Source of the DNA: a virus
Direction: 5' to 3' (one strand)
IMG/VR virus record: IMGVR_UViG_3300007735_000920
Location: 1-62,003 of that record
DNA: 62,003 bases
Within the stretch, counting starts at the first letter, position 1. Every line of letters begins with the position of its first letter. Below are positions 16,075 through 61,779 of the stretch, piece after piece. A program made the position numbers and the translations under genes. Below the pieces are notes generated by a model, which worked only from the letters and a program-made list of their open reading frames with translations, searched no databases and was not told where the DNA came from.

Positions 16075-16084
16075 ACTATTTATA
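16075..16084 (+). promoter_or_regulatory. Late promoter ACTATTTATA
   Basis: Exact consensus, five bases after the portal stop and 27 bases before the ATG at 16102. Confidence 0.65.
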
Positions 16085-18195: not shown

Positions 18196-18786
18196 ATGTC
18201 AGAGAAATTTGTACTAACAGAGTTTCTAGAACTATCAAATGATTCTTCACTATTGACTGAAGCTGAAAAGCAAAAAGTTAATGAAGGCGAAGAATTTATT
18301 CTTGCTGGTGTAATGCAAAGAGCTGACGCCGAAAATGGCAATGGTCGTATCTATCCTCTTGATATATTAGAAAGAGAAGTTGAAAATTACAAGAAACTTG
18401 TAAGAGACAGCCGTGCTCTTGGCGAATTAGACCACCCAGACTCGCCCGTAATTGAGCTAAAAAATGCCTCCCATATGGTTACATACATTGAGATGCGTGG
18501 TAGAGATGTTGTAGGTAAAATTAGAGTTCTTGATACTCCAGCAGGGAAAGTTGCAAAAGAACTTCTAAAAGGTGGCGTAAAGCTAGGAATTTCTTCTAGA
18601 GGTCTTGGTTCAACAAAACAACAAAATGGTAAGACAATGGTTCAAGAAGACTTTCAATTGGTCTGCTTTGATCTTGTATCTGAACCATCAACAACTGGTG
18701 CCTTCATGTTGAAAGAAGGTATGCAACCCAATCTTTTCACAAAAGCAGATAGAATCAATAGAATACTAAACAGTATAATAAAGTAA
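18196..18786 (+). CDS. Prohead core protease (gp21-like)
   Basis: 196 residues, close to T4 gp21. Hallmarks of the phage prohead serine protease: NGRIYPLDILEREVENYKKL, catalytic His80 in GELDHPDSP, catalytic Ser in GISSRGLG (133-134) and the following QLVCFDLVSEPST strand. It should cut scaffold, capsid and internal proteins after (L/I)-x-E once the prohead is complete, and probably itself. The N-terminus (LTEFLELS, LLTEAEK) has possible self-cleavage sites. One base after the preceding gene, four before the next. Confidence 0.93.
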   Translation: MSEKFVLTEFLELSNDSSLLTEAEKQKVNEGEEFILAGVMQRADAENGNGRIYPLDILEREVENYKKLVRDSRALGELDHPDSPVIELKNASHMVTYIEMRGRDVVGKIRVLDTPAGKVAKELLKGGVKLGISSRGLGSTKQQNGKTMVQEDFQLVCFDLVSEPSTTGAFMLKEGMQPNLFTKADRINRILNSIIK

Positions 18787-22537: not shown

Positions 22538-24361
22538 ATGGCTACTATTGTTGAAAGTTTAACAAGAGATATAGTCGATCGCGATCTCCGTAAAGAAGGT
22601 GCCAATCTCATCAAGAAATGGGAAAAGACTGGTCTTCTTGAAGGTTTGAGCGACGACAGAGTAAAAAATACAATGTCGGTTCTATTAGAGAACCAAGCAA
22701 AAGAACTACTACGTGAAGCTTCTTCAATGTCCGCTGGTGACGTTGAAGGTTTCGCCGCTGTAGCATTTCCAATTGTACGTCGTGTATTCGGCGGTCTAAT
22801 TGCAAATGAATTAGTTTCCGTACAACCAATGTCATTACCATCAGGTCTAATCTTCTTCCTAGATTTTACCTTCTCGGCTGACACTGGCGCTAGAACTCAA
22901 TCAGGGTTTACTGCTGTAACTGCTTCTTCAGTATACGGTGGTGGCGTTGTTGGTCAACAAATCACTGGTGGTGTAAGTCTAACTGGTGCCAATGCCGAAA
23001 CGAGCTTCTATGCTCTAAATAACGGCTACTCAAGCGCCACTGGCTCTGCGGCAACAACTGTTGCTGCTGCAACCCCAGATGACCTTTTTGGTAGTGGTGA
23101 TACAACATCACTACAAAATAGAACACTTGCTGTTATTACAGCAAGCGATGTTTTATATTCTGCCATTCTAGGTTATGATGCCGATGAAGCTGCTCTAAAT
23201 TCCGGAACAATCTATTCTGTTGTAAGCATTCCATTATCAAACCTAACTGGTTCTGGTGGTAATCCTTTTGACACCAACAACTTGATCGCACTCAATGTTG
23301 CCTCTTCTTCTAATGGTTTGATTACAAACCAAGCTGCTGGCACAACTCACAGCGTTGTAAGAAGATTGACAAGACTCAGTGCAGACAAGACCAAGGTTAT
23401 TCTAACTGTAAAAAGCGCTGGTACCACACCAGCCAATCCAGTAAATACTTCTGGTACTCCTGCATGTACTTTTGCAGTCAAAGATAAGTTCACCGCTGAT
23501 ACAACTAGATTCTCAATTTCTGAGCTTCTAGCTGCTGAAGGCGCTGGTTCTGGCTCTGTTGGTCCCGGCTTAGGTCAATCCTCTGGTGCAAATGCAACAA
23601 TCCCCGAGATCGACATTAAGGTGGATTCAATTGCTGTAACTGCTCAAACCAAGAAACTAAAAGCAAAATGGACTCCTGAGCTAGCTCAAGATCTAAATGC
23701 TTATCACAACTTGGATGCAGAAGTAGAATTGACTGGTATTCTCTCAGAGCAAATTGCTCTAGAAATCGACCAAGAGATTCTAAACGATCTAGTTAAGGGT
23801 GCCACCGCTGGTACACTTTACTGGTCACGTCGCCCCGGTAAGTTCGTAAACCGTGAAACTGGCGCATCAATTGCTTCAGCAGTTGCTCCTCCAGACTTCA
23901 CTGGTAACGTGTCCGAATGGTACGAAACACTTGTAGAAACTCTAAACGACGTTTCTGCTCGTATTCACCGTAAGACACTACGCGGTGGTGCAAACTTCAT
24001 GGTTTGCTCACCAGAAGTTGCTAACATCCTAGAGTTCACCTCTGGTTTCCGCGCTTCTGTATCTGCTGAAGAACTCAAAGGTAATTCAGTGGGTGCCGTA
24101 AAGGTTGGCTCAATGAGCAAGAAGTGGGACGTATATGTTGATCCATATTTCCCACGTAACGTAGTACTAATCGGTCGTAGAGGCAAGGCGTTCTTAGAGA
24201 GCGGCTATGTCTACGCTCCTTATGTACCACTACAAGTTACCCCCACCATCTTTGGTGTCGAGGACTTCGTACCACGTAAAGGCGTAATGACTCGTTATGC
24301 CAAGAAGATGGTGCGCCCCGATATGTACGGTTTAGTAATCTGCGAAGATCTATTAGGCTAG
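22538..24361 (+). CDS. Major capsid protein (gp23-like)
   Basis: 607 residues. FPIVRRVFGGLIANELVSVQ then PMSLPSGLIFFLDFTF and the C-terminal VEDFVPRKGVMTRYAKKMV identify T4-type gp23. A predicted prohead-protease site L-L-R-E60|A61 matches the position of T4 cleavage after E65, so the mature protein should start near base 22718. Immediately after it lies SSMSAGDVEGFA, a motif repeated in the 58665-60227 product. About 85 residues longer than T4 gp23, mainly as a Ser/Gly/Ala-rich insertion at about 110-330. Strong ribosome site AAGGAG; codon use appears more optimised than in neighbours (many CGT, GGT, CTA). Followed by a terminator. Confidence 0.95.
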   Translation: MATIVESLTRDIVDRDLRKEGANLIKKWEKTGLLEGLSDDRVKNTMSVLLENQAKELLREASSMSAGDVEGFAAVAFPIVRRVFGGLIANELVSVQPMSLPSGLIFFLDFTFSADTGARTQSGFTAVTASSVYGGGVVGQQITGGVSLTGANAETSFYALNNGYSSATGSAATTVAAATPDDLFGSGDTTSLQNRTLAVITASDVLYSAILGYDADEAALNSGTIYSVVSIPLSNLTGSGGNPFDTNNLIALNVASSSNGLITNQAAGTTHSVVRRLTRLSADKTKVILTVKSAGTTPANPVNTSGTPACTFAVKDKFTADTTRFSISELLAAEGAGSGSVGPGLGQSSGANATIPEIDIKVDSIAVTAQTKKLKAKWTPELAQDLNAYHNLDAEVELTGILSEQIALEIDQEILNDLVKGATAGTLYWSRRPGKFVNRETGASIASAVAPPDFTGNVSEWYETLVETLNDVSARIHRKTLRGGANFMVCSPEVANILEFTSGFRASVSAEELKGNSVGAVKVGSMSKKWDVYVDPYFPRNVVLIGRRGKAFLESGYVYAPYVPLQVTPTIFGVEDFVPRKGVMTRYAKKMVRPDMYGLVICEDLLG

Positions 24362-39041: not shown

Positions 39042-40214
39042 ATGTACTTCCAAACTATTGAACGTAACAAAAACTGCTTTGGTTTTTATGCGGATGGATC
39101 AATCAAAATCGATCTGCTGCCATCGCATCCATCAAAAACTTGGGATTACACACACCTATGCGATGACAGCACAGAACTTGCCAAGATCTATTGTGGTGGC
39201 AAGACACTTCTTGAGGTGTGTCCCGAGGAACTAAAGGACGAAGCCGTACAAAGTTTTGATAAACTGAAGGCTTTTATGCGTAGTATGGTTCACGCCAAGA
39301 TAGATTTTGATGTGAATTGTTTTTATGATCTGCTTCCAGAAAAGTTCTTGTTAGAACACTTTGAGATACGTAATAAAATCACTAAATATGTGCTTGAAAA
39401 TTACGAAAAGCCAAAGAACTATGAAACTCTACGTGACGCTTCAGAACTAATTTATAACATCGAACAACACAAGCTAAACATCGACCTAGAATCGGTCAAG
39501 AAAAAGCTGCCAAATCCAAAAGCGCAAAGATTTATAAAAAACAAGTATCCAAATCGTATCAAATATAATGTATTTGGTGCAGTTACGGGTCGTCTGACGC
39601 TAGGCAAAGACAGTTTTCCAATTCTGAATCTCGATAAAGAGCTTCGTGATTGTATCAAACCGAACAATCATCGTTTTGTTGAGCTAGATTATAATTCAGC
39701 AGAGCTTCGTGTTTTGCTTGCCATATGCAATAAAGAGCAGCCAACCATTGATTTACATGAGTGGAACTCAATAAACATCTTTGGTGGCAAGCTAGACCGC
39801 TCAAAAGCTAAACAGAAGATCTTTTCATGGCTTTATGACAAGAAAACTAACGAATTGGCTGAAAAAGTTTATGATAAACAGATAATTATAGATAAGTTCT
39901 ATGATGGAAATAAAGTGAAAACTGTTTATAATCGAGAGATTGAGTGCGACCAAGAACATGCTGTAAATTATGTCATTCAGAGCACAGCAACGGATTTGGT
40001 CGTGGAACAAGCACACAAGATTCAGAAGATTTTGCAAGGCAAGAAGTCTTTTATCGCATTTTATCTATATGATTCTGTTGTATTGGACTTCCACAAGGAA
40101 GATATGCATCTGCTGAAACAAATTGCAAATACATTTTCTAATACTCGGTTTGGAAACTTTTTGACCAATGTTTCTGTTGGCAAGAACTTTGGCGAAATGG
40201 AGAAGAACAAATGA
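39042..40214 (+). CDS. Family A DNA polymerase, polymerase core only
   Basis: 390 residues. Pol I palm/fingers motifs: FGAVTGRLTLGKDSFPILNL (like T-G-R-L-S...N), motif A FVELDYNSAELRVL near 211-224, O-helix R-x-x-A-K-x-x-x-F near 253, NYVIQSTATDLVVEQA and motif C YLYDSVVLDF near 339-348. The canonical His of motif C (HDE) is replaced by Tyr (YDS). There is no 3'-5' or 5'-3' exonuclease domain. Rhodothermus phage RM378, a distant T4 relative, also splits polymerase and exonuclease. T4-type family B gp43 is not in this window. Ends in an ATGA overlap with the next gene. Confidence 0.88.
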   Translation: MYFQTIERNKNCFGFYADGSIKIDLLPSHPSKTWDYTHLCDDSTELAKIYCGGKTLLEVCPEELKDEAVQSFDKLKAFMRSMVHAKIDFDVNCFYDLLPEKFLLEHFEIRNKITKYVLENYEKPKNYETLRDASELIYNIEQHKLNIDLESVKKKLPNPKAQRFIKNKYPNRIKYNVFGAVTGRLTLGKDSFPILNLDKELRDCIKPNNHRFVELDYNSAELRVLLAICNKEQPTIDLHEWNSINIFGGKLDRSKAKQKIFSWLYDKKTNELAEKVYDKQIIIDKFYDGNKVKTVYNREIECDQEHAVNYVIQSTATDLVVEQAHKIQKILQGKKSFIAFYLYDSVVLDFHKEDMHLLKQIANTFSNTRFGNFLTNVSVGKNFGEMEKNK

Positions 40215-41047
40215 TTTTTATGGGGCTTGGCGGTGGTGGTTGCTCGTTGGCAAAAAGATTTTATGAAGTTGCCGAGGAAGGCAATCAACTATTTCTTTTC
40301 GACACAAATGAAAAATATAAGCTTCCCAAAACCAAGTCAATGGAGGAAGCGGAACAAAAAACGCCAGACTTCAAGCTCAACATAAAAGATGAAGACATAT
40401 TGTTTATTCTTTGTGGGGGTGGAAATACATCTGGTCATGCTTTGAGAATTCTTGAGCAGATAAAAGATAATAACATTGACATTATTTATGTGCGCCCAGA
40501 TCTTTCTTTGGCAAATTCAGAAGAGAAGCTTCGTGAAAAAGTTGTTTTCAATATCTTTCAGGAAATGACTCGCTCTGGATTATTCAACAAGATGATTCTG
40601 GTTTCCAATGAGCATATTGCAAAGTCAAACGAAGATATAGCTCTTGACAATTATTACGATAAAATCAATGAAACGGTTGAATATGTTTATGGTCACATCA
40701 ACTTCTTTCTTTCTAAGAAAGCAATTAGAAGCAACTTGACAAGCCCGAAAGAAGCATGTAGGCTTGTCACTATCGGCATGGTAGATTACGAATCTGGTGA
40801 AGAGCAGATGTTATTCCCGATGGAAAATATAAGAGAAAAACAGTTTCTTTTCGGCTTGTCGCCTGAATCTGTAAAAAATCGTAAATCGTTACAAAAAATT
40901 CAAGACCACTTGACAAAAATTGAAAAGCAGGGTATCATCTGTTCCCATAAGATTCTTTCACTAGAAATAAGTGACAATCTCGTTTTTACTATTAATTACA
41001 CTAATTTTATACAAAACCAACTTATACTAAACAACGGAGAAAACTAA
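40211..41047 (+). CDS. Putative tubulin/FtsZ-superfamily protein
   Basis: 278 residues. Opens with MIFMGLGGGGCSLAKRFYEV, like the FtsZ T1 loop G-x-G-G-G-G-x-N, then FLFDTNEK where FtsZ has its TD/NTD strand, then ILFILCGGGNTSGHALRILE, close to the tubulin signature GGGTGTG. MILVSNEHI fits the T6 PNDxL position, followed by a long H7-like helix. The T7 catalytic motif NxDxxD is not intact (SNLTSPKEA). It is shorter than FtsZ and lacks a clear second domain. Located between polymerase and SSB genes and translationally coupled to the polymerase. A replication or DNA-positioning role is inference; a different Rossmann-type fold remains possible. Confidence 0.5.
   Translation: MIFMGLGGGGCSLAKRFYEVAEEGNQLFLFDTNEKYKLPKTKSMEEAEQKTPDFKLNIKDEDILFILCGGGNTSGHALRILEQIKDNNIDIIYVRPDLSLANSEEKLREKVVFNIFQEMTRSGLFNKMILVSNEHIAKSNEDIALDNYYDKINETVEYVYGHINFFLSKKAIRSNLTSPKEACRLVTIGMVDYESGEEQMLFPMENIREKQFLFGLSPESVKNRKSLQKIQDHLTKIEKQGIICSHKILSLEISDNLVFTINYTNFIQNQLILNNGEN
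40985..41013 (+). promoter_or_regulatory. Possible sigma70-type promoter for SSB gene
   Basis: TTTACT (40985-40990), 17-base spacer, TATACA (41008-41013) within the end of the preceding gene, 36 bases before the SSB ATG. Weaker -35 than the other members of this class. Confidence 0.4.
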
Positions 41048-53024: not shown

Positions 53025-53309
53025 ATGAATCTAAAACCTTTCAATCGTCGGCTTATCGTTGAGCGAATAGAAACGAAAGAAGACAAAAATACAAGTGCAT
53101 TTTATATTCCCCCAGAAATGGAAGAAGAGTTTGCGAAGCGAAAAGAATTTGAGCTTGTCTCAATTGTAAACAAAGCCAATGATGTAAGTCTCCCCGTATC
53201 TATAAATGATAAAGTTGTGATTTTATCACACATGATTGAAAAAATAGAAATAAATGGCGAAACTTTATTGGCTGTAGCTGAAAATAATGTTATTGGCAAA
53301 ATCATCTAG
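53025..53309 (+). CDS. GroES-like co-chaperonin (gp31 functional analogue)
   Basis: 94 residues. Cpn10 pattern: MNLKPFNRRLIVERIETKED, mobile-loop region TSAFYIPPE, INDKVVILSHMIEKIEINGE and a final AVAENNVIGKII. T4 gp31 replaces GroES so that GroEL can fold gp23; this protein probably does the same for the capsid protein here. The loop tripeptide FYI replaces the usual IVL. Good AGAGGA ribosome site. Confidence 0.85.
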   Translation: MNLKPFNRRLIVERIETKEDKNTSAFYIPPEMEEEFAKRKEFELVSIVNKANDVSLPVSINDKVVILSHMIEKIEINGETLLAVAENNVIGKII

Positions 53310-53830: not shown

Positions 53831-53859
53831 AATAATCTAAAATTTAATATATACTATGA

Positions 53860-53891
53860 GGCACCGATGGGAAACTATCGGTGCTTTTTTG
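53860..53891 (+). terminator. Terminator with GAAA tetraloop
   Basis: 8-bp stem GCACCGAT (53861-53868) with ATCGGTGC (53877-53884), extended by G-T and G-C pairs closing a GAAA loop (53871-53874), then TTTTTTG. Almost identical in sequence to the hairpin after the capsid gene. Confidence 0.85.
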
Positions 53892-53902
53892 TTTTATTGG
53901 CA

Positions 53903-53912
53903 ACTATTTATC
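53903..53912 (+). promoter_or_regulatory. Late promoter ACTATTTATC
   Basis: After the terminator and 26 bases before the ATG at 53929. It probably drives the cluster up to 58641. Confidence 0.6.
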
Positions 53913-53928
53913 TTGTCGGAGGATTATT

Positions 53929-54291
53929 ATGGAAGAATTAGTTACAAGTTTGCTACAAATCCAACAGCAAACAAGAATTTTACATTGGCAAACAAAGTCA
54001 TATGCTCGTCATAAAGCCTATGGAAAAATATATGATGATTTAGGCGATCTAATAGATGAGTTCATGGAAGTTCACATGGGCAAATATGGTCGTTTTGAGT
54101 TAGAAGACAAAAGAATTGCTGTAGAAAATTTAGAAGATATGACTGTTTCTGATTTTCTTGATCAATCAATTGAATTTCTAATTGGTTTGACCGACCAACT
54201 TGATGCAAGAAGAGATACAGACCTTCTCAATATTAGAGATGAAATGTTAGCTAAAATGAATAGATTGAAATATCTACTAACTCTGAAATAG
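53929..54291 (+). CDS. Ferritin-like/Dps-like small phage protein (DUF5856-type)
   Basis: 120 residues. ILHWQTKSYARHKAYGKIYD then LGDLIDEFMEVHMGKYGRF resembles the Dps ferroxidase helix pair (HW...H...Y...D-x-x-x-E), and the whole chain is helical. Dps proteins bind iron and protect DNA, but the iron-site residues are only partly matched. GGAGGA ribosome site supports the ATG at 53929. Heads a late operon that also holds a superoxide dismutase. Confidence 0.65.
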   Translation: MEELVTSLLQIQQQTRILHWQTKSYARHKAYGKIYDDLGDLIDEFMEVHMGKYGRFELEDKRIAVENLEDMTVSDFLDQSIEFLIGLTDQLDARRDTDLLNIRDEMLAKMNRLKYLLTLK

Positions 54292-54301
54292 GCTTTTTAC
54301 C

Positions 54302-56626
54302 ATGAAAATTCAGATTCGCAAAACACTTTCAGAAGATATGAAAGCTCCTTATTATAAGAGAGTAAAAGGTATCCACGAAAAGAATAAAAAAATTCTGATT
54401 GGTTTTGGTGTCGGAGCCGATGAAAACAGAGGACCGTTCAAGACCGACCGTTCGATGGGCAAGAAGGGTAAATCTGCACCTCCCGGCGCTGCTGGTGGTG
54501 GTTCTTTAGAAGAAGTGCTGGTAGAAGGCGGTGTTGCTGGGCATATGAATCACTTATATGATAATCCAGACATTACATTTAGCCAAATAAAAGATATATT
54601 CAATAAAGCTTCTGCTGGCGAACTGGAAGGTACAGAAAAAACCGATGGGCAAAATTTGCAAATCTCTTTTTCAGTACCAGAACAAAGAGCTAAAGCCGCT
54701 AGAAATAAAGGCAACATCAAGGCTGGTGGTCTAACTTCCGACGAACTAAAAACCAAATTTGCTGGTCGTGGTCCACTGGAAGAAACATTTGCTGATGCTC
54801 TTCAATCTTTTGAGGAACTTGTAAAAACTTTACCCCAAGAACAACAAGTAAGTATTTTTGGTCCTAATACTGAAATATATTATAATGCCGAAGTTCAAGA
54901 TCCTAGAACAGCTAATGTAATTTATTATGATTCGCCAAACTTGGTTATTCACCAAGCTGGACATGCTAAATACAATAGAGAAACGGGAGACAAAGAAGAA
55001 GTTGACGTTTCACAAAATGCAGCAATGCTCAACGATCTGTTGCAAAAACAACAGAGTTCACAACAAAGTAAATTCAAGGTTCAATCTAACGCTATAAGAA
55101 AATTACAAGCTATATCAGATAAAAGTATCGTAAAGAACTACATCACAAGACTAGACCAAGAAATAAGCAAGTATGGCATCTCGGATAATCAAAAACTAAA
55201 AGATTATGAAAAAGCCAGACTTCGACAAATCATAAAGCAAGAATTCAACATTGAGCTAAATGATGAACAATTTGAGATGATTTCAACCAAGATGTTTGGC
55301 GAAACATCAGAAAACATAAATCAAGTTGTAAAGAGATTTCCACCTGAAATTGCTGCAACAGTAAAAACTATTATTGCCTCCAAAGATTTATTAGGTAAAG
55401 CCGTAAGACCAATTGAGGTAATTATTCATGATTTTGCTGTGGAAATTCTAAAGGGTCTTGAGAGCGCATTTGTTCTAGATAATAAGAAAGAAGTAAAGAG
55501 ACTAAAAGACGAAGTTGCAGATGCTATAAATCAAATACAACAATCTGGGCAAGAAGAAGCTATAACTATTCTAAACAAACAATTGGAAAAACTCAAGACG
55601 GCTGACAATGTTTATACAGCAGCTGAAGGATTTGTCTTCCAGTATGATGATGTTGTGTATAAATTTACTGGTAATTTTGCTCCAATAAATCAAATCTTGG
55701 GATTGTTCAAGTATGGCAGAGGCTCTGTGCCAGCTATCAAAAAACAAATCAGTGAATCAACTGAAGCACAAAATGTAATTGTTGTATTCCCCGGTTCCTT
55801 CAAGCCTCCGCACAAAGGACATATAGGACTTGTTGACGAAGTATCACACATGTCTGGTATCAGTAAAGTTGTTGTCCTTATATCTGATCCTGTGCAAGAA
55901 ACCAGTATAAGAACAAAAGACTTTGGCGCTAAAGAAGTCAAACTAATTTTCGATCTTTACAGCGAAGTGTATGACTTTGGCTGTAGTGTTGATTTTGATG
56001 TTGCTAATGCGCCTTCCCCATTGACTGCGGCTTATAAGTATTTGGAAACAGAAAACTTTCAGCCGGGAACCAAAGTTTTATTTGCAACATCAAAAGCAGA
56101 TGCTGGAAGGTATCCGCAAATCAAATTAGATAAATCTGCTTCCAAAAATCCTTCTGGACCAACCGCTGGCTCTATAGAATTACCAGAGATGATCGATCCA
56201 GATACAGGAAAGAAATTTAGTGCAACAAACATGCGTGAAATTCTTGCAGATCCAAATGCAGATAAACAACTGCTGAAGAGATATATGCCAAATGAACTTC
56301 CCGATGAAGATAAGGAAATGGTGATTGATATGCTTACAAAAGGCTCTAAAAAACAAGAGATGGAAACTATGATAACAGAAATCTTAGCAGAAATGTTAGG
56401 ACTTTCTGAGAAGAAAGATATGATTTGTGATGGTACCATGTGTAATGAAGTTCATGATGGTATGAGTCACAAAGAATATGAATCATATTTGATGCAAGAA
56501 AAAGAGGGCGAAGATGATCGTTGCACTCGTATTGCAAAAAGAAAGTACGATGCTTGGCCAAGCGCTTATGCTTCTGGTGCAGTTGTAAGATGCCGCAGAG
56601 GCGAAATTTGGAAAGGCGAAAAGTAA
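54302..56626 (+). CDS. Ligase-like nucleotidyltransferase + HxGH nucleotidylyltransferase fusion
   Basis: 774 residues. Leader MKIQIRKTLSEDMKAPYYKR. Residues about 80-470 look like a covalent nucleotidyltransferase (RNA/DNA ligase fold): motif I E112-K-T-D-G116, acidic strand YYNAEVQDP, motif IV-like EGFVFQYDD near 442 and K in VYKFTGNFAPINQILG. Residues about 490-690 are a nucleotidylyltransferase: FPGSFKPPHKGH (H504-H507) and SATNMRE (640-646), as in NMN/cytidylyl transferases. The C-terminus (about 745-774) is a KYDAWPSAYASGAVVRCRRG module seen in other phage proteins. Joint action on NAD or RNA ends is possible; the substrate cannot be read from sequence. Confidence 0.75.
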   Translation: MKIQIRKTLSEDMKAPYYKRVKGIHEKNKKILIGFGVGADENRGPFKTDRSMGKKGKSAPPGAAGGGSLEEVLVEGGVAGHMNHLYDNPDITFSQIKDIFNKASAGELEGTEKTDGQNLQISFSVPEQRAKAARNKGNIKAGGLTSDELKTKFAGRGPLEETFADALQSFEELVKTLPQEQQVSIFGPNTEIYYNAEVQDPRTANVIYYDSPNLVIHQAGHAKYNRETGDKEEVDVSQNAAMLNDLLQKQQSSQQSKFKVQSNAIRKLQAISDKSIVKNYITRLDQEISKYGISDNQKLKDYEKARLRQIIKQEFNIELNDEQFEMISTKMFGETSENINQVVKRFPPEIAATVKTIIASKDLLGKAVRPIEVIIHDFAVEILKGLESAFVLDNKKEVKRLKDEVADAINQIQQSGQEEAITILNKQLEKLKTADNVYTAAEGFVFQYDDVVYKFTGNFAPINQILGLFKYGRGSVPAIKKQISESTEAQNVIVVFPGSFKPPHKGHIGLVDEVSHMSGISKVVVLISDPVQETSIRTKDFGAKEVKLIFDLYSEVYDFGCSVDFDVANAPSPLTAAYKYLETENFQPGTKVLFATSKADAGRYPQIKLDKSASKNPSGPTAGSIELPEMIDPDTGKKFSATNMREILADPNADKQLLKRYMPNELPDEDKEMVIDMLTKGSKKQEMETMITEILAEMLGLSEKKDMICDGTMCNEVHDGMSHKEYESYLMQEKEGEDDRCTRIAKRKYDAWPSAYASGAVVRCRRGEIWKGEK

Positions 56627-56627
56627 A

Positions 56628-57476
56628 ATGAAAATTCCTCTGAACCAACTTCAGCAGATTATCAAAGAAGAGCTTACAAAAGCCATTGAAGAAGAGTGGT
56701 CTGAAAAATATAAAAGATCAATTGACTGCAAAAATCCAAAAGGCTTTTCTCAAAGAGCACATTGCCAAGGCAGAAAGAAAAATGAAGCTAGTGATCCAAA
56801 AGTAGGAACAGGTAAAAAACCAGAGGGTTCTGGTCGCCGCTTATACACAGATGAAAATCCAAAAGATACTGTGAGTGTTAAATTTTCAACTGTTCAAGAT
56901 ATAAAAGACACTCTCTCAAAAGAATCTTTCAAGTCAAAACCACATGCTCGTCAATCACAGATAATCAATCTAATTCACCAGAGAGTTCGCGCTGCCTATG
57001 AAAACGCAAAAGATCCAGAAGTGAAAGCTAGACTAAAGAAAGCATATGAATATGCAGAGCAAAGAAAAGAAGCCTCAAAAGAAAAAACTGCCAGTTTGCA
57101 AAAGGAAGAACAAGACGTTCAACTAAATGAAAAATGCTGGGAAGGTTATACACAGAAAGGCATGAAAACAATGTTTGGCAAGAAATACCCAAACTGCGTA
57201 AAAAAGACAAATGAAGAAGTTGAATTAGATGAGCGCAAACTTGGCAAGCCTTCTAGTGAAACTTCTTTGAGAGATTGGTTCAAGCGCAAAGGTGCCCCCG
57301 GTAAAGGCGGCGGTTGGGTTGATTGTAATACTTGTCGTGATGGTAAATGCAAGCCATGTGGCAGACAAGAAGGCGAAAAGAGAAGCAAGTATCCAAGATG
57401 CCGTCCAACTCCTGCCCAATGTAAGGGCTACAAGAGAAGAGGCGATAATCTACAAAAGGAAGCGGAAGAACAATGA
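56628..57476 (+). CDS. Modular Cys-rich protein with EE-helix leader
   Basis: 282 residues. Leader MKIPLNQLQQIIKEELTKAI. Then modules known from other marine phage proteins: KYKRSIDCKNPKGFSQRAHC; a helical segment SQIINLIHQRVRAAYENAKD; CWEGYTQKGMKTMFGKKYPN with CVKK; and SLRDWFKRKGAPGKGGGWVD followed by CNTCRDGKCKPCGRQEGEKR and YPRCRPTPAQCKGYKRRG. At least nine Cys could bind zinc. Strongly basic. Overlaps the SOD gene by four bases (ATGA). A packaged, nucleic-acid-binding protein is plausible from charge and leader. Confidence 0.72.
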   Translation: MKIPLNQLQQIIKEELTKAIEEEWSEKYKRSIDCKNPKGFSQRAHCQGRKKNEASDPKVGTGKKPEGSGRRLYTDENPKDTVSVKFSTVQDIKDTLSKESFKSKPHARQSQIINLIHQRVRAAYENAKDPEVKARLKKAYEYAEQRKEASKEKTASLQKEEQDVQLNEKCWEGYTQKGMKTMFGKKYPNCVKKTNEEVELDERKLGKPSSETSLRDWFKRKGAPGKGGGWVDCNTCRDGKCKPCGRQEGEKRSKYPRCRPTPAQCKGYKRRGDNLQKEAEEQ

Positions 57477-58009
57477 AAATAAGACTGCTTCTGGAGTCAA
57501 AGAAGAAATACGTTCAAGTTCCTCTGCCTGTAAAAAAGACGGAACTTGAACCTGTTATGTCTGCTGACACAATTGATTATCATTATGGCTCTCTTTATAA
57601 AGGCTACGTTGATAAAGCCAATAAAGGTATTGGTGGTGAATTCCAAAAAGCAGGAGCTTTTCTTCATAACATTTGGTTCTCACAATTTACAAAGCCTTCC
57701 TCAAAAAAACCAGACGGTTTATTCCTTGAGCTTGTAAATCGCAAATACGGTTCTTATGCCTCTTTCCAAAAAGAAATGAAAGAAGTTGCCATGAAGATTC
57801 AAGGCTCTGGTTGGGTCTATATGGATAAAAACGGCAACATAAAAACTATTGTAAATCACGAAATCAAACCAGACATTATCCTATTGATTGATTGGTGGGA
57901 ACACGCTTGGGCTTTGGATTATCAAGCAGATAAAGAAGAATACCTAGACAACATTTACAAAGTTATTGACTGGAATGTTATAAACGCTCGTTTATCGACG
58001 GAGCAATAA
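57473..58009 (+). CDS. Fe/Mn superoxide dismutase with leader peptide
   Basis: 178 residues. Leader MKIRLLLESKKK, with an L-L-E|S protease-like site, precedes a SOD fold: SADTIDYHYGSLYKGYVDKA, FLHNIWFSQF, GSGWVYMDKNG and LLIDWWEHAWALDYQADKEE. All four metal ligands are present: H37, H65, D140, H144, plus the gateway Tyr45. The second-sphere KHH motif is changed to SLY. It should convert superoxide to peroxide and oxygen. Overlaps the preceding Cys-rich gene by four bases and the next gene by one. Late class by operon. Confidence 0.85.
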   Translation: MKIRLLLESKKKYVQVPLPVKKTELEPVMSADTIDYHYGSLYKGYVDKANKGIGGEFQKAGAFLHNIWFSQFTKPSSKKPDGLFLELVNRKYGSYASFQKEMKEVAMKIQGSGWVYMDKNGNIKTIVNHEIKPDIILLIDWWEHAWALDYQADKEEYLDNIYKVIDWNVINARLSTEQ

Positions 58010-58641
58010 TGGCTTATCTCAATCACAATATACCAACAATAACTTGCTACATTAGAAATGAGTATTTATTCAATCACGAAAAAGGACATGGCGAGTATTC
58101 GCTATGTGATGTTCACTCTGTTGCTTCAATGGAAAAGAGAGTTCCTTTATTTGAGGCGTTCCTTGAAAATGGTGTGAACTGGACAAGACGACCTATCCAC
58201 GCTTTCTGCTGGAAGAAAGAAGCTCCTATTAGAAAACTAGAAGAACATATTTATTGGGACTGTTTCAGCCCATATGTCGATGTTCAAGTTAGAAACAGAT
58301 TGGCTGGATTGAAAGCACAGCTTATTGATTATAAAGGTAATAAACACCTTGGTCAATATATGTTTACTCTTGATTGGTCTTGGGAAAACAAATCTGGCAA
58401 TATGGACACAAATTTTAGTGAAACTCCAGAACATAAATGCGGGCACCTATTCAAGATGGACGAAGGTAACTTCTTTATTTATCCTAACAACAGAATCATT
58501 TGGTATGATGATGCTTGGACAAAGGATAGAATCAAAGGCAATCCCGGTTATAGAATTGATATGACAGTTTATTCTGTTGAAAATAAAAGATTATATGAAA
58601 CAGATGACCAATACTTTACGGAGTTTTCTAAAGCAAAGTAA
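58009..58641 (+). CDS. Conserved marine-phage protein of unknown function
   Basis: 210 residues, start MAYLNHNIPTITCYIRNEYL. Continues with HGEYSLCDVHSVASMEKRVP, PIHAFCWKK and IYWDCFSPYV. Related proteins occur in many T4-like phages; no function is known to me. Rich in aromatic residues and His, no leader helix. Overlaps the SOD stop by one base. Confidence 0.7.
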   Translation: MAYLNHNIPTITCYIRNEYLFNHEKGHGEYSLCDVHSVASMEKRVPLFEAFLENGVNWTRRPIHAFCWKKEAPIRKLEEHIYWDCFSPYVDVQVRNRLAGLKAQLIDYKGNKHLGQYMFTLDWSWENKSGNMDTNFSETPEHKCGHLFKMDEGNFFIYPNNRIIWYDDAWTKDRIKGNPGYRIDMTVYSVENKRLYETDDQYFTEFSKAK

Positions 58642-58664: not shown

Positions 58665-60227
58665 ATGAATTTTAGACTCATAAGACAGCTTGCTAGAAAG
58701 ATTCTTCTAGAAGAACGCCCAGCCATATCTCTTGGACCTTGGAGTGAAGAAGATAGCGGATTTTGTAGATATAATGCAAAAATTAATGAATATGCCGCAG
58801 ACTCTCCAGAAAATCTTGCCGAAGTTCTAATCTTCTGTGTTGCCTCTCAACTTGTTGATTGGCCAAACATTTATACAAGATTTCCATATCTCATAAATTG
58901 GATATATGCCCATGATGGTATGTATCCAAAAGATGCTAAAATGGTTGGTAAAAAAATGGAAGGTGGATTTCCAAAAACTTTCGAGGCAATCGCTCTTGGC
59001 GAAAAAGCTAAATCCATAAATTTTCTTTGGAAAGATAGAGATAACGTATTCAGAACACTCTCTCCGATTATAAGAAGATATAAGAACATGAAAGAGGGAG
59101 AAGCAAAAGAGCAAGCAGCTTTTGAGCTTTATCTGAAAATACTTGATGTTAGACACTTGAAACTTGCAAAAGCTGGTTTTGCTGTACAATTGTTGATAGG
59201 TAGATATGGTTGCATAGACTCAATAAATACTAAGTTATTAAAAGTGCCAATGCCAGCAACTCTTGTTACAACTGACAAAGAAGGCAAACCTTCCTTCAGA
59301 GATTATACGAAAAAATATGTAAATGATACTGCATTTGGAGTTTCCGCAGAGGAATCCAAAGAAAGACTAGCCAGATTATATGCTGATTATTTATTGGAAA
59401 TTGGTAATTTAGCAAAAGATAATGAATCAAAAGTTTTATGGGACAAATGGTGTGACATTGTTGCTGCTAAAATAAACTTTGCTGGTAAAGAATTTGATGT
59501 TACTGATCCACAAGGTATATATAAAGATGCGACTGTCAAAAGTGATTATGCTGTAAACATCAAACCAACTACGCCACCAGCAAGTTATCAATATGGTCCC
59601 GGTAAAAAAGAAATTGCTGGTCCAGAAGTGAGCAGACAACATGCCGGTCTATATAGAGGTATGAGAGACATAACGGAGAACAACATGAACAATAAACTAA
59701 AATCTATAATTCTTGAACAATTACTAGAAATGCTAAACGAAAAGACATTTGCCGGAAAGAAAGAGTTAGATAACGATGGCGATGGTGTTCCAAAATGGGC
59801 TGACAAGGACGATGCTAATCCAAAAGTTGGATCAAAGTCAAGTAAGAAAAAAGAACTCGATGAAATGTCCTCAATGAGCGCTGGTTCTGTTGAAGGTTAT
59901 GCAGCCCCACTAGATGAAGAAGATGATACAATTGTTGAGTATTTGACCGAAGAAGAAGCCAAGAAAAAACAGCCAAGACTCGGAAAGGTGACTCGTAATC
60001 CGGCAGGATCAAATAAGAAATTTCACGTTTATGTGAAGTGCAACGGAAGAGTAAAGAAAATTTCTTTCGGTGATCCCGGTTTATCAATCAAGAGAGACTC
60101 CGCTGCTCGTAGAAAGAATTTCAGAGCAAGACACAAATGCGATAAACCAGAGGGTAAAAATCGCTGCACAGCCCGCTATTGGTCTTGTTATCAATGGAGA
60201 GCAGGCAAGAAAGTAGAAGGCGAGTAA
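58665..60227 (+). CDS. Mosaic protein with leader, internal leader copy and capsid-like motif
   Basis: 520 residues. Leader MNFRLIRQLARKILLEERPA, then a helical domain (about 25-320) with no known match. At about 345-362 a second leader-like helix MNNKLKSIILEQLLEMLNEK begins what looks like a separate small protein: a Ca-loop-like DNDGDGVPKWADKDDANP, then MSSMSAGSVEGYA (residues 401-413), nearly the sequence after the gp23 cleavage site, and a C-terminal module VYVKCNGRVKKISFGDPGLS with RHKCDKPEGKNRCTARYWSC seen in many marine phage proteins. Probably a fusion that could be cut by the prohead protease. Confidence 0.72.
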   Translation: MNFRLIRQLARKILLEERPAISLGPWSEEDSGFCRYNAKINEYAADSPENLAEVLIFCVASQLVDWPNIYTRFPYLINWIYAHDGMYPKDAKMVGKKMEGGFPKTFEAIALGEKAKSINFLWKDRDNVFRTLSPIIRRYKNMKEGEAKEQAAFELYLKILDVRHLKLAKAGFAVQLLIGRYGCIDSINTKLLKVPMPATLVTTDKEGKPSFRDYTKKYVNDTAFGVSAEESKERLARLYADYLLEIGNLAKDNESKVLWDKWCDIVAAKINFAGKEFDVTDPQGIYKDATVKSDYAVNIKPTTPPASYQYGPGKKEIAGPEVSRQHAGLYRGMRDITENNMNNKLKSIILEQLLEMLNEKTFAGKKELDNDGDGVPKWADKDDANPKVGSKSSKKKELDEMSSMSAGSVEGYAAPLDEEDDTIVEYLTEEEAKKKQPRLGKVTRNPAGSNKKFHVYVKCNGRVKKISFGDPGLSIKRDSAARRKNFRARHKCDKPEGKNRCTARYWSCYQWRAGKKVEGE

Positions 60228-61059: not shown

Positions 61060-61779
61060 ATGAAAGAGATTTTTAGAAGCTGGAATAAATACTTGTTAAC
61101 TGAGTCATCTTTATCAAGAGTGCTTGAGCATATTGAGGCTCATGATTGCGCTGTAATAACTGCTTTTAGAAGCGATCCGGATGATACTTCTAAGTGTGCC
61201 GATGGCACTGATTCAGATTCTGAAAACGTTTCTGATGTTGGCTCCGAAGAAGAAGTAGAAGCCGTAGAGATGGAAAAGCCAAAAGTTGGTAAGAAAGAAA
61301 CTTTAAGCAAAAACAAAGTTAGAAACCGCGACCTCAAAGCCACTCTTTTAGATAGAGGATATGGTGTCACCGCAGTTGTCGGATCTTATGTAGAGAATTT
61401 CATGGAAGAAAACTCTGTGGAAGTGAAAGAGGACAGTCTATTTGTTGTAAATCTAAAGGAAGATGGAGACTTCATTAATACCATCGAGTCTTTAGGTCGC
61501 AAGTACTGCCAAGATTCAGTGCTTATAATTCCTCAAGGCGGTAAAGACGCTTATCTGCTTGGTACAAACAACGCAGATTTCCCCGGCTTAGGCAACAAAG
61601 AAGTTGTTGGTAGTTTTCAGGCTGGGCGCGAAGATCAATTCATGACTCGCGTTGGTGATCGCCCATTCACCATGAAAGAAAGAAAAGAATTCAAGCTTGA
61701 GACTCTAGCTAATCACACAAGAAACTCTCGCTGGGCAATCAAGACAATTGCAAAAAGAGTAAATAAAACTTTACGATAA
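61060..61779 (+). CDS. Leader-bearing conserved marine-phage protein
   Basis: 239 residues. N-terminus MKEIFRSWNKYLLTESSLSR resembles the W-x-x-[FY]-L-x-E starts of many cyanophage proteins and the T4 capsid-targeting peptide (MKTYQEFIAEA), with an L-T-E|S site. The body (GYGVTAVVGSYVENFMEENS, SLFVVNLKEDGDFINTIESL, GRKYCQDSVLIIPQGGKDAY) is a conserved alpha/beta domain of unknown function. An acidic linker lies at about 45-75. Confidence 0.72.
   Translation: MKEIFRSWNKYLLTESSLSRVLEHIEAHDCAVITAFRSDPDDTSKCADGTDSDSENVSDVGSEEEVEAVEMEKPKVGKKETLSKNKVRNRDLKATLLDRGYGVTAVVGSYVENFMEENSVEVKEDSLFVVNLKEDGDFINTIESLGRKYCQDSVLIIPQGGKDAYLLGTNNADFPGLGNKEVVGSFQAGREDQFMTRVGDRPFTMKERKEFKLETLANHTRNSRWAIKTIAKRVNKTLR

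Follow-up and report, generated by a model that had tools for sequence, protein, structure and literature searches.

We identified, in a 62,003-nucleotide virus record (hereafter the window), a phage Fe/Mn superoxide dismutase (SodFM) of 178 amino acids whose precursor carries a predicted capsid-targeting leader. We think it likely, with real room for doubt, that this enzyme is head-packaged cargo which a prohead protease processes and which probably leaves the particle together with the DNA – though targeting, cleavage, packaging, ejection, activity and purpose are all inferred. Phage SOD genes have so far been read as auxiliary metabolic genes working in the infected cell. If our reading is true, hundreds of these proteins bear a conserved head-targeting leader that brings the enzyme into the particle, and superoxide already matters when the DNA enters the cell or even earlier.

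Identification of a phage superoxide dismutase

An earlier note had placed a phage Fe/Mn SOD at 57473–58009. The coordinates are exact, on the + strand, and Pfam, AlphaFold (AF2) and Foldseek analyses bear out the assignment. The open reading frame starts with an ATG that overlaps the stop codon of the preceding gene and matches Sod_Fe_N (6.7e-8) and Sod_Fe_C (4.5e-21), both above the gathering cut-offs. A PDB sequence search returned 158 distinct matches with Bacteroidales Fe-SODs on top, and a PHROG search returned no family covering the reading frame. The AF2 model, built on an input alignment of 25 sequences from the window and viral contigs only, has a pLDDT of 90.3, with residues 1–9 as the sole stretch below 50. 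Foldseek matched this model to SodFM structures, with query TM scores of 0.80–0.87 for 8avl and 1wb8. The protein has both features we required of a SodFM, namely the pair of Pfam domains and the two-domain fold, and is a true Fe/Mn superoxide dismutase by family and fold; its dismutase activity and its metal are inferred.

A profile-guided scan of IMG/VR recovered at least 593 viral contigs with relatives of this SOD. We fetched 80 of them, most at 54–61% identity, and the leader statistics below rest on the fetched contigs. Named phages with related SODs include the PA5oct group (39%) and Vibrio phage 2.275.O (34%), and BFVD contains one 57% relative annotated ‘superoxide dismutase’. Cellular-type SODs in phage-labelled records (MW462191, MT839568 and others) are unlike these proteins and were excluded as members.

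The phage enzymes form a separate clade with an altered gate

To compare active sites, we aligned 38 phage homologues with 78 cellular SODs. The four metal ligands that the earlier note had listed, H37, H65, D140 and H144, correspond to E. coli SodB H26, H73, D156 and H160 and are unchanged in 38/38 phage homologues, as are the equivalents of Tyr34 (Y45 in the window), Trp122, Trp158 and Glu159. The same note had pointed to a changed KHH segment near the active site, and this too is correct: KHH is replaced by S40-L41-Y42, so that Leu stands at the His30 position (L41) in all 38 phage SODs, where 78/78 cellular sequences have His. At the Tyr163 position (A147 in the window), the phage proteins have Ala (33), Ser (3), Met or Val, versus Tyr in every cellular sequence. 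The His30/Tyr163 gate pair, customary in cellular SODs but no strict condition of membership, is thus absent from the phage clade. The hairpin is also shortened, and Leu or Ile occupies the position two residues ahead of the Asp ligand.

The solvent gate of human MnSOD consists of His30 and, from the partner subunit, the residue equivalent to Tyr163. Their joint loss therefore points to reconstruction of the gate more than to a dead site. This is an inference, and activity could be lower than usual. Alternatively, the gate residues may have been lost because catalysis is no longer selected, the SOD fold serving as a head-internal structural or metal-binding protein (a core filler or DNA-associated protein) instead of a dismutase. 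We regard this as improbable: the uniform replacement of both gate positions fits it, but the ligands, the four conserved aromatic and acidic positions and the second-sphere His are unchanged in 38/38, and codon changes between the closest phage variants are mostly synonymous (54 versus 15 otherwise). The clade widens knowledge of the SodFM active site because two residues fixed in the sampled cellular SODs are replaced together.

Under the SodFM scheme of PMC10172142, a C-terminal His as the water-coordinating second-sphere residue points to SodFM3/4. This His (H129 in the window) is present in 38/38 phage SODs, all of which have Gly at the position aligned with the N-terminal second-sphere Gln that marks SodFM2. 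As for SodFM4 features, the second His of HXXXHH is lost in 36/38 phage SODs, and the first His is lost too. In a phylogenetic tree that includes 84 other SODs, nearly all of them from cells, the phage SODs separate as their own clade with a support of 100/100; sampling of SodFM3/4 is thin there and some branches are long. As far as these sequences allow us to judge, the window SOD belongs to a phage-only SodFM clade.

A conserved leader with the form of a prohead-protease site

The earlier note had suggested that the first residues of the SOD are a capsid-targeting leader, implying possible packaging or delivery. Codons 1–8 (57473–57496, + strand) encode MKIRLLLE, within the stretch of low model confidence, and homologue conservation and model disorder predict a prohead-protease cut after E8 (LLLE↓S, the arrow marking the predicted cut). 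The mature enzyme would then start at S9 and be encoded by 57497–58006 on the + strand.

We grouped 86 homologues at 80% identity into 37 clusters and found (L/I/V/M/F)-x-E before the SOD domain in 36 of them. Of the 37 clusters, 30 have the extended form (L/I/V/M/F)-x-E↓(G/S/A), whereas shuffling each leader gives an expectation of 2.4 (sd 1.5); P3 is mostly L/I and P1' mostly G/A/S. Leaders are 8 residues long in the window phage and 7–19 in relatives, and only their end is kept: they are otherwise free to vary, as in MKIRLLLE↓S, MMIKIILE↓S, MKNFSHFIE↓S, MAYNFIQKFIVE↓G and MTQDIKHFIDLVE↓S. In a single cluster, L020, the cut site lacks the E (IFA↓SS). The predicted cut mostly lies 28–31 residues before the first ligand and the Met-to-His distance is ~25–29 in most of the cellular SODs listed, so cleavage would leave a roughly normal SOD N-terminus.

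Leaders of this type are absent from the cellular SODs listed, and none of the 15 UvsE and 10 QueD proteins encoded in SOD contigs carries the motif. Among the other open reading frames of these contigs, 31/367 have it versus 16–28 in control segments, which is near background. An IscA-type gene beside many SODs scored 6/16, but these matches fall in the start of the conserved domain (e.g. ITES) and not in an added leader, and we rejected this candidate.

It could be argued that MKIRLLLE merely extends the N-terminus and contains LxE by accident, since [LIVMF]xE is common at N-termini in the window (24/61 versus 13–23 in control segments). Against this, the leaders change freely except at their end, and the count of 30 clusters for the extended motif, across 37 diverged clusters, statistically excludes a chance motif. 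We give this explanation almost no weight; judged by its distribution across the homologues, the leader with its gp21-site form is not a product of chance. These independent homologues lend strong support to the interpretation in the earlier note.

Among the clade members examined, only the SOD of Vibrio phage 2.275.O (contig L010, 6004–6573) lacks an N-terminal leader; at its other end it has a leader-like tail, MLDE↓SVNIRHLINFISK (shuffle p ~0.004). C-terminal processing also occurs in T4 Alt (PMC9026906), which makes it possible that the targeting tail has moved to the C-terminus in this phage, an analogy that rests on a single case.

The phage encodes a protease that could cut the leader

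The 62-kb window has a T4-like layout, with terminase, portal (phrog_213), prohead protease, major capsid protein and tail sheath genes. The protease that would cut the leader is of the T4 gp21 type (18196–18786, + strand; phrog_207 head maturation protease, 1.5e-52), and the major capsid protein is also T4-type (22538–24361, + strand; phrog_138, 1.2e-70). A site scan of the latter predicts a propeptide cut, LLRE↓AS, after residue 60, which follows the same rule as the SOD leader and recurs in the capsid protein of a relative (G001). In T4, gp21 cleaves after L/I-x-E, capsid targeting needs no more than the initial 10 residues of IPIII, and foreign enzymes fused to a capsid targeting sequence (CTS) are brought into heads and then into cells (PMC9026906). 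The window phage has both of the CTS features we looked for: a short N-terminal leader ending in L/I-x-E and a gp21-type protease encoded by the same phage.

The protease is also found in other SOD records. Of 17 searched, 6 encode a gp21-type protease and the same 6 encode a T4-type capsid protein, so that the protease is present in every SOD contig showing a T4-type capsid gene; the records without it are mostly fragments. The exception in size is G004, a 265-kb SOD contig with neither a T4-type protease nor a T4-type capsid protein. A search of G004 for another head protease family (phrog_3014) gave no match, but the control was silent too. A megablast search of the window head and tail region against public phages gave no match.

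A peptide directly following the predicted capsid-protein cut, MSAGDVEGFA (window 22727), repeats as MSAGSVEGYA or MSGGAVQG(Y/F)A in products of genes shortly downstream of the SOD (window 59874; L002, L004, L005 and L006). It is possibly a common capsid-interaction motif.

From these elements we propose the following route. The precursor of a phage-specific SOD would be synthesized late, and its N-terminal capsid-targeting leader would attach it to the scaffold core of the prohead. The gp21-type protease, cutting after (L/I)-x-E, would then release mature SOD inside the head, where it would be packed with DNA and probably ejected together with it. The ejected enzyme would remove superoxide at the start of infection, before any phage gene expression; alternatively, packaged SOD may protect the packaged DNA or internal head proteins. 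Counting against packaging are the cluster without E at the cut site, the large contig without T4-type head genes and an only modest enrichment of leaders across the window.

The SOD lies in a putative late operon

The earlier note had put the SOD in a late operon, among leader-bearing proteins and a Dps-like protein. A late operon is plausible. An intrinsic terminator (53858–53887, + strand; 13-pair stem and T run) is followed by a ACTATTTA motif (53903–53910, + strand) lying 26 nt before the first gene of the putative operon. This motif has 18 copies on the + strand (e.g. at 16075, 21185, 24436, 27037, 32335, 41857, 53903, 58641 and 61033) and 0 on the – strand, and 12 copies are within 10–70 nt of gene starts versus 1.1 expected. 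It also precedes head and tail genes. The T4 late promoter TATAAATA has 0 exact copies upstream of genes on the + strand, and ACTATTTA fits instead. We infer from this placement that ACTATTTA is a good candidate late promoter of the phage group, in which case the SOD would group with the structural genes.

Support for the neighbours is weaker. The first gene of the putative operon (53929–54291, + strand) encodes a small helical protein, and its description as Dps-like rests only on DUF5856 (PF19174, 1.4e-20), a PHROG label (phrog_858) and a weak PDB similarity to a Dps-type NAP (E 0.38). Leader-bearing neighbours are indeed present, but their excess across the window is modest, with [LI]xE[GSADE] at 14/61 N-termini versus 3–7 in control segments. 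They include a protein starting MKIQIRKTLSE↓D with a cytidylyltransferase-like domain (54302–56626, + strand; PF01467, 2.1e-4), the upstream overlapping gene (56628–57476, + strand; MKIPLNQLQQIIKE↓EL; PHROG families of unknown function) and a phrog_7595 protein (58665–60227, + strand; 1.3e-13) that starts MNFRLIRQLARKILLE↓E and is preceded by ACTATTTATA. Directly downstream of the SOD lies a phrog_3704 gene (58009–58641, + strand; 1.5e-47) from a family labelled ferredoxin, whose product has no Pfam match and no PDB match.

Other genes of the window include an S-adenosylmethionine lyase family protein (61060–61779; PF23780, 1.1e-12) with a leader-like start, MKEIFRSWNKYLLTE↓SS – such an anti-restriction enzyme, if packaged, would have a counterpart in T4 IPI – as well as a GroES-like co-chaperonin (53025–53309; Cpn10, 3.1e-7) and a protein with a Gly-rich N-terminus (MIFMGLGGGGCSLAKRF; 40211–41047), perhaps tubulin/FtsZ-like or another nucleotide-binding protein. 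In one relative (L076, 2138–8377), adjoining genes share one leader type (MRAYQFITE↓A, MRANEFLE↓G, MRAQEFTE↓G and MKINEVIMRE↓Y).

Packaged enzyme or auxiliary metabolic gene

The established way to read such a gene is that the infected cell produces SOD, which shields the host and the replicating phage (Fe-S proteins, RNR and DNA) from superoxide, the leader being incidental or having another role and any particle association being minor. An intracellular ‘phage-mediated ROS defense’ has been proposed for freshwater phages that carry genes for SOD, ferritin and thioredoxin, and the accessible portion of that source does not mention packaging (PMC6802176). Gene neighbourhoods are favourable to this explanation as well. 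In many relatives (L007, L028, L036, L041, L052, L063, L084 and others), the SOD adjoins genes for a UV endonuclease, an A-type Fe-S carrier, an IscU-like protein and a QueD-like protein, named from sequence motifs and not by family search; none has a conserved added leader, and together they fit a DNA-damage or oxidative-stress theme. The SOD gene of Pseudomonas phage PA5oct is likewise situated in a metabolic cluster.

Evidence from outside the sequences also comes from PA5oct. The public record flags its SOD homologue, gp223, which has its own leader (SIAE↓A), as ‘ESI-MS/MS’. What this flag covers we take from PMC6950013, according to which PA5oct underwent structural proteomics, and from a related ESI-MS/MS protocol that used a purified phage suspension (PMC4908380). 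Within the PA5oct central region, the leader motif is found in 11/93 MS-marked versus 2/122 unmarked proteins (Fisher p = 0.0026). RNR, ThyA and UvsX also figure in the MS list, which leaves room for carry-over, and detection alone is no proof; the flag is only indirect evidence for cleavage or presence in the virion.

An exclusively intracellular enzyme would leave unexplained the leader in 36/37 clusters, its gp21-site form, a cut at approximately the natural SOD N-terminus and the detection of the PA5oct homologue. We therefore think it unlikely to be the whole account, though the two roles are not exclusive, and packaged and expressed SOD may coexist. Returning to the head-packaged enzyme, culturable Pseudomonas phages allow a cheap test of packaging, and the form of a leader and the place of its cut offer a way of predicting from sequence which enzymes are packaged.

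We are evenly divided on the broadest form of the proposal: that the phage-only SodFM lineage is standard head cargo, with a CTS-like leader and prohead-protease maturation, injected as a first-minute antioxidant or anti-defence effector, and is the first virion-packaged SOD described for bacterial viruses. A literature search on phage SODs and packaging found no earlier description of a packaged SOD, with subscription papers outside its scope.

Comparison with known systems

The closest functional parallel is T4, whose internal proteins IPI–IPIII and Alt carry a CTS cut by gp21; the window phage likewise combines a short N-terminal leader ending in L/I-x-E with a gp21-type protease. In contrast to these proteins, the SOD is a metalloenzyme whose family is widespread among cellular organisms, its leader sequence differs and its targeting and cleavage are inferred.

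Within SodFM, the nearest enzymes by sequence are Bacteroidales SodFM2 (8avm, 1ues), which share the fold, ligands, Tyr34 and WEH motif. The phage SOD differs from them in its shortened hairpin, loss of His30 and Tyr163, leader, separate clade and use of a C-terminal His rather than an N-terminal Gln. SodFM3 and SodFM4 (PMC10172142) also have the C-terminal water-coordinating His, and SodFM4 has also lost the second His of HXXXHH; the phage SOD additionally lacks the first His of HH and stands apart in a tree containing few SodFM3/4. PA5oct gp223 and its homologues in Wroclawvirus-type phages (MIJ3, Callisto and Paride) belong to the same clade and have their own leader (MNDSIKKYISIAE↓A), but are 39% identical to the window SOD and annotated as hypothetical or sodB; the MIJ3 and Callisto papers do not discuss them.

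Giant-virus virions contain SODs, including the Cu,Zn-SOD of Megavirus chilensis and others (PMC9405923), and thus carry an antioxidant enzyme in the virion as proposed here. The Megavirus enzyme, however, has an unrelated Cu,Zn fold, a eukaryotic host and no prohead-protease leader. The enzyme family and CTS cargo were each known; what is new is their combination, its breadth and the altered gate.
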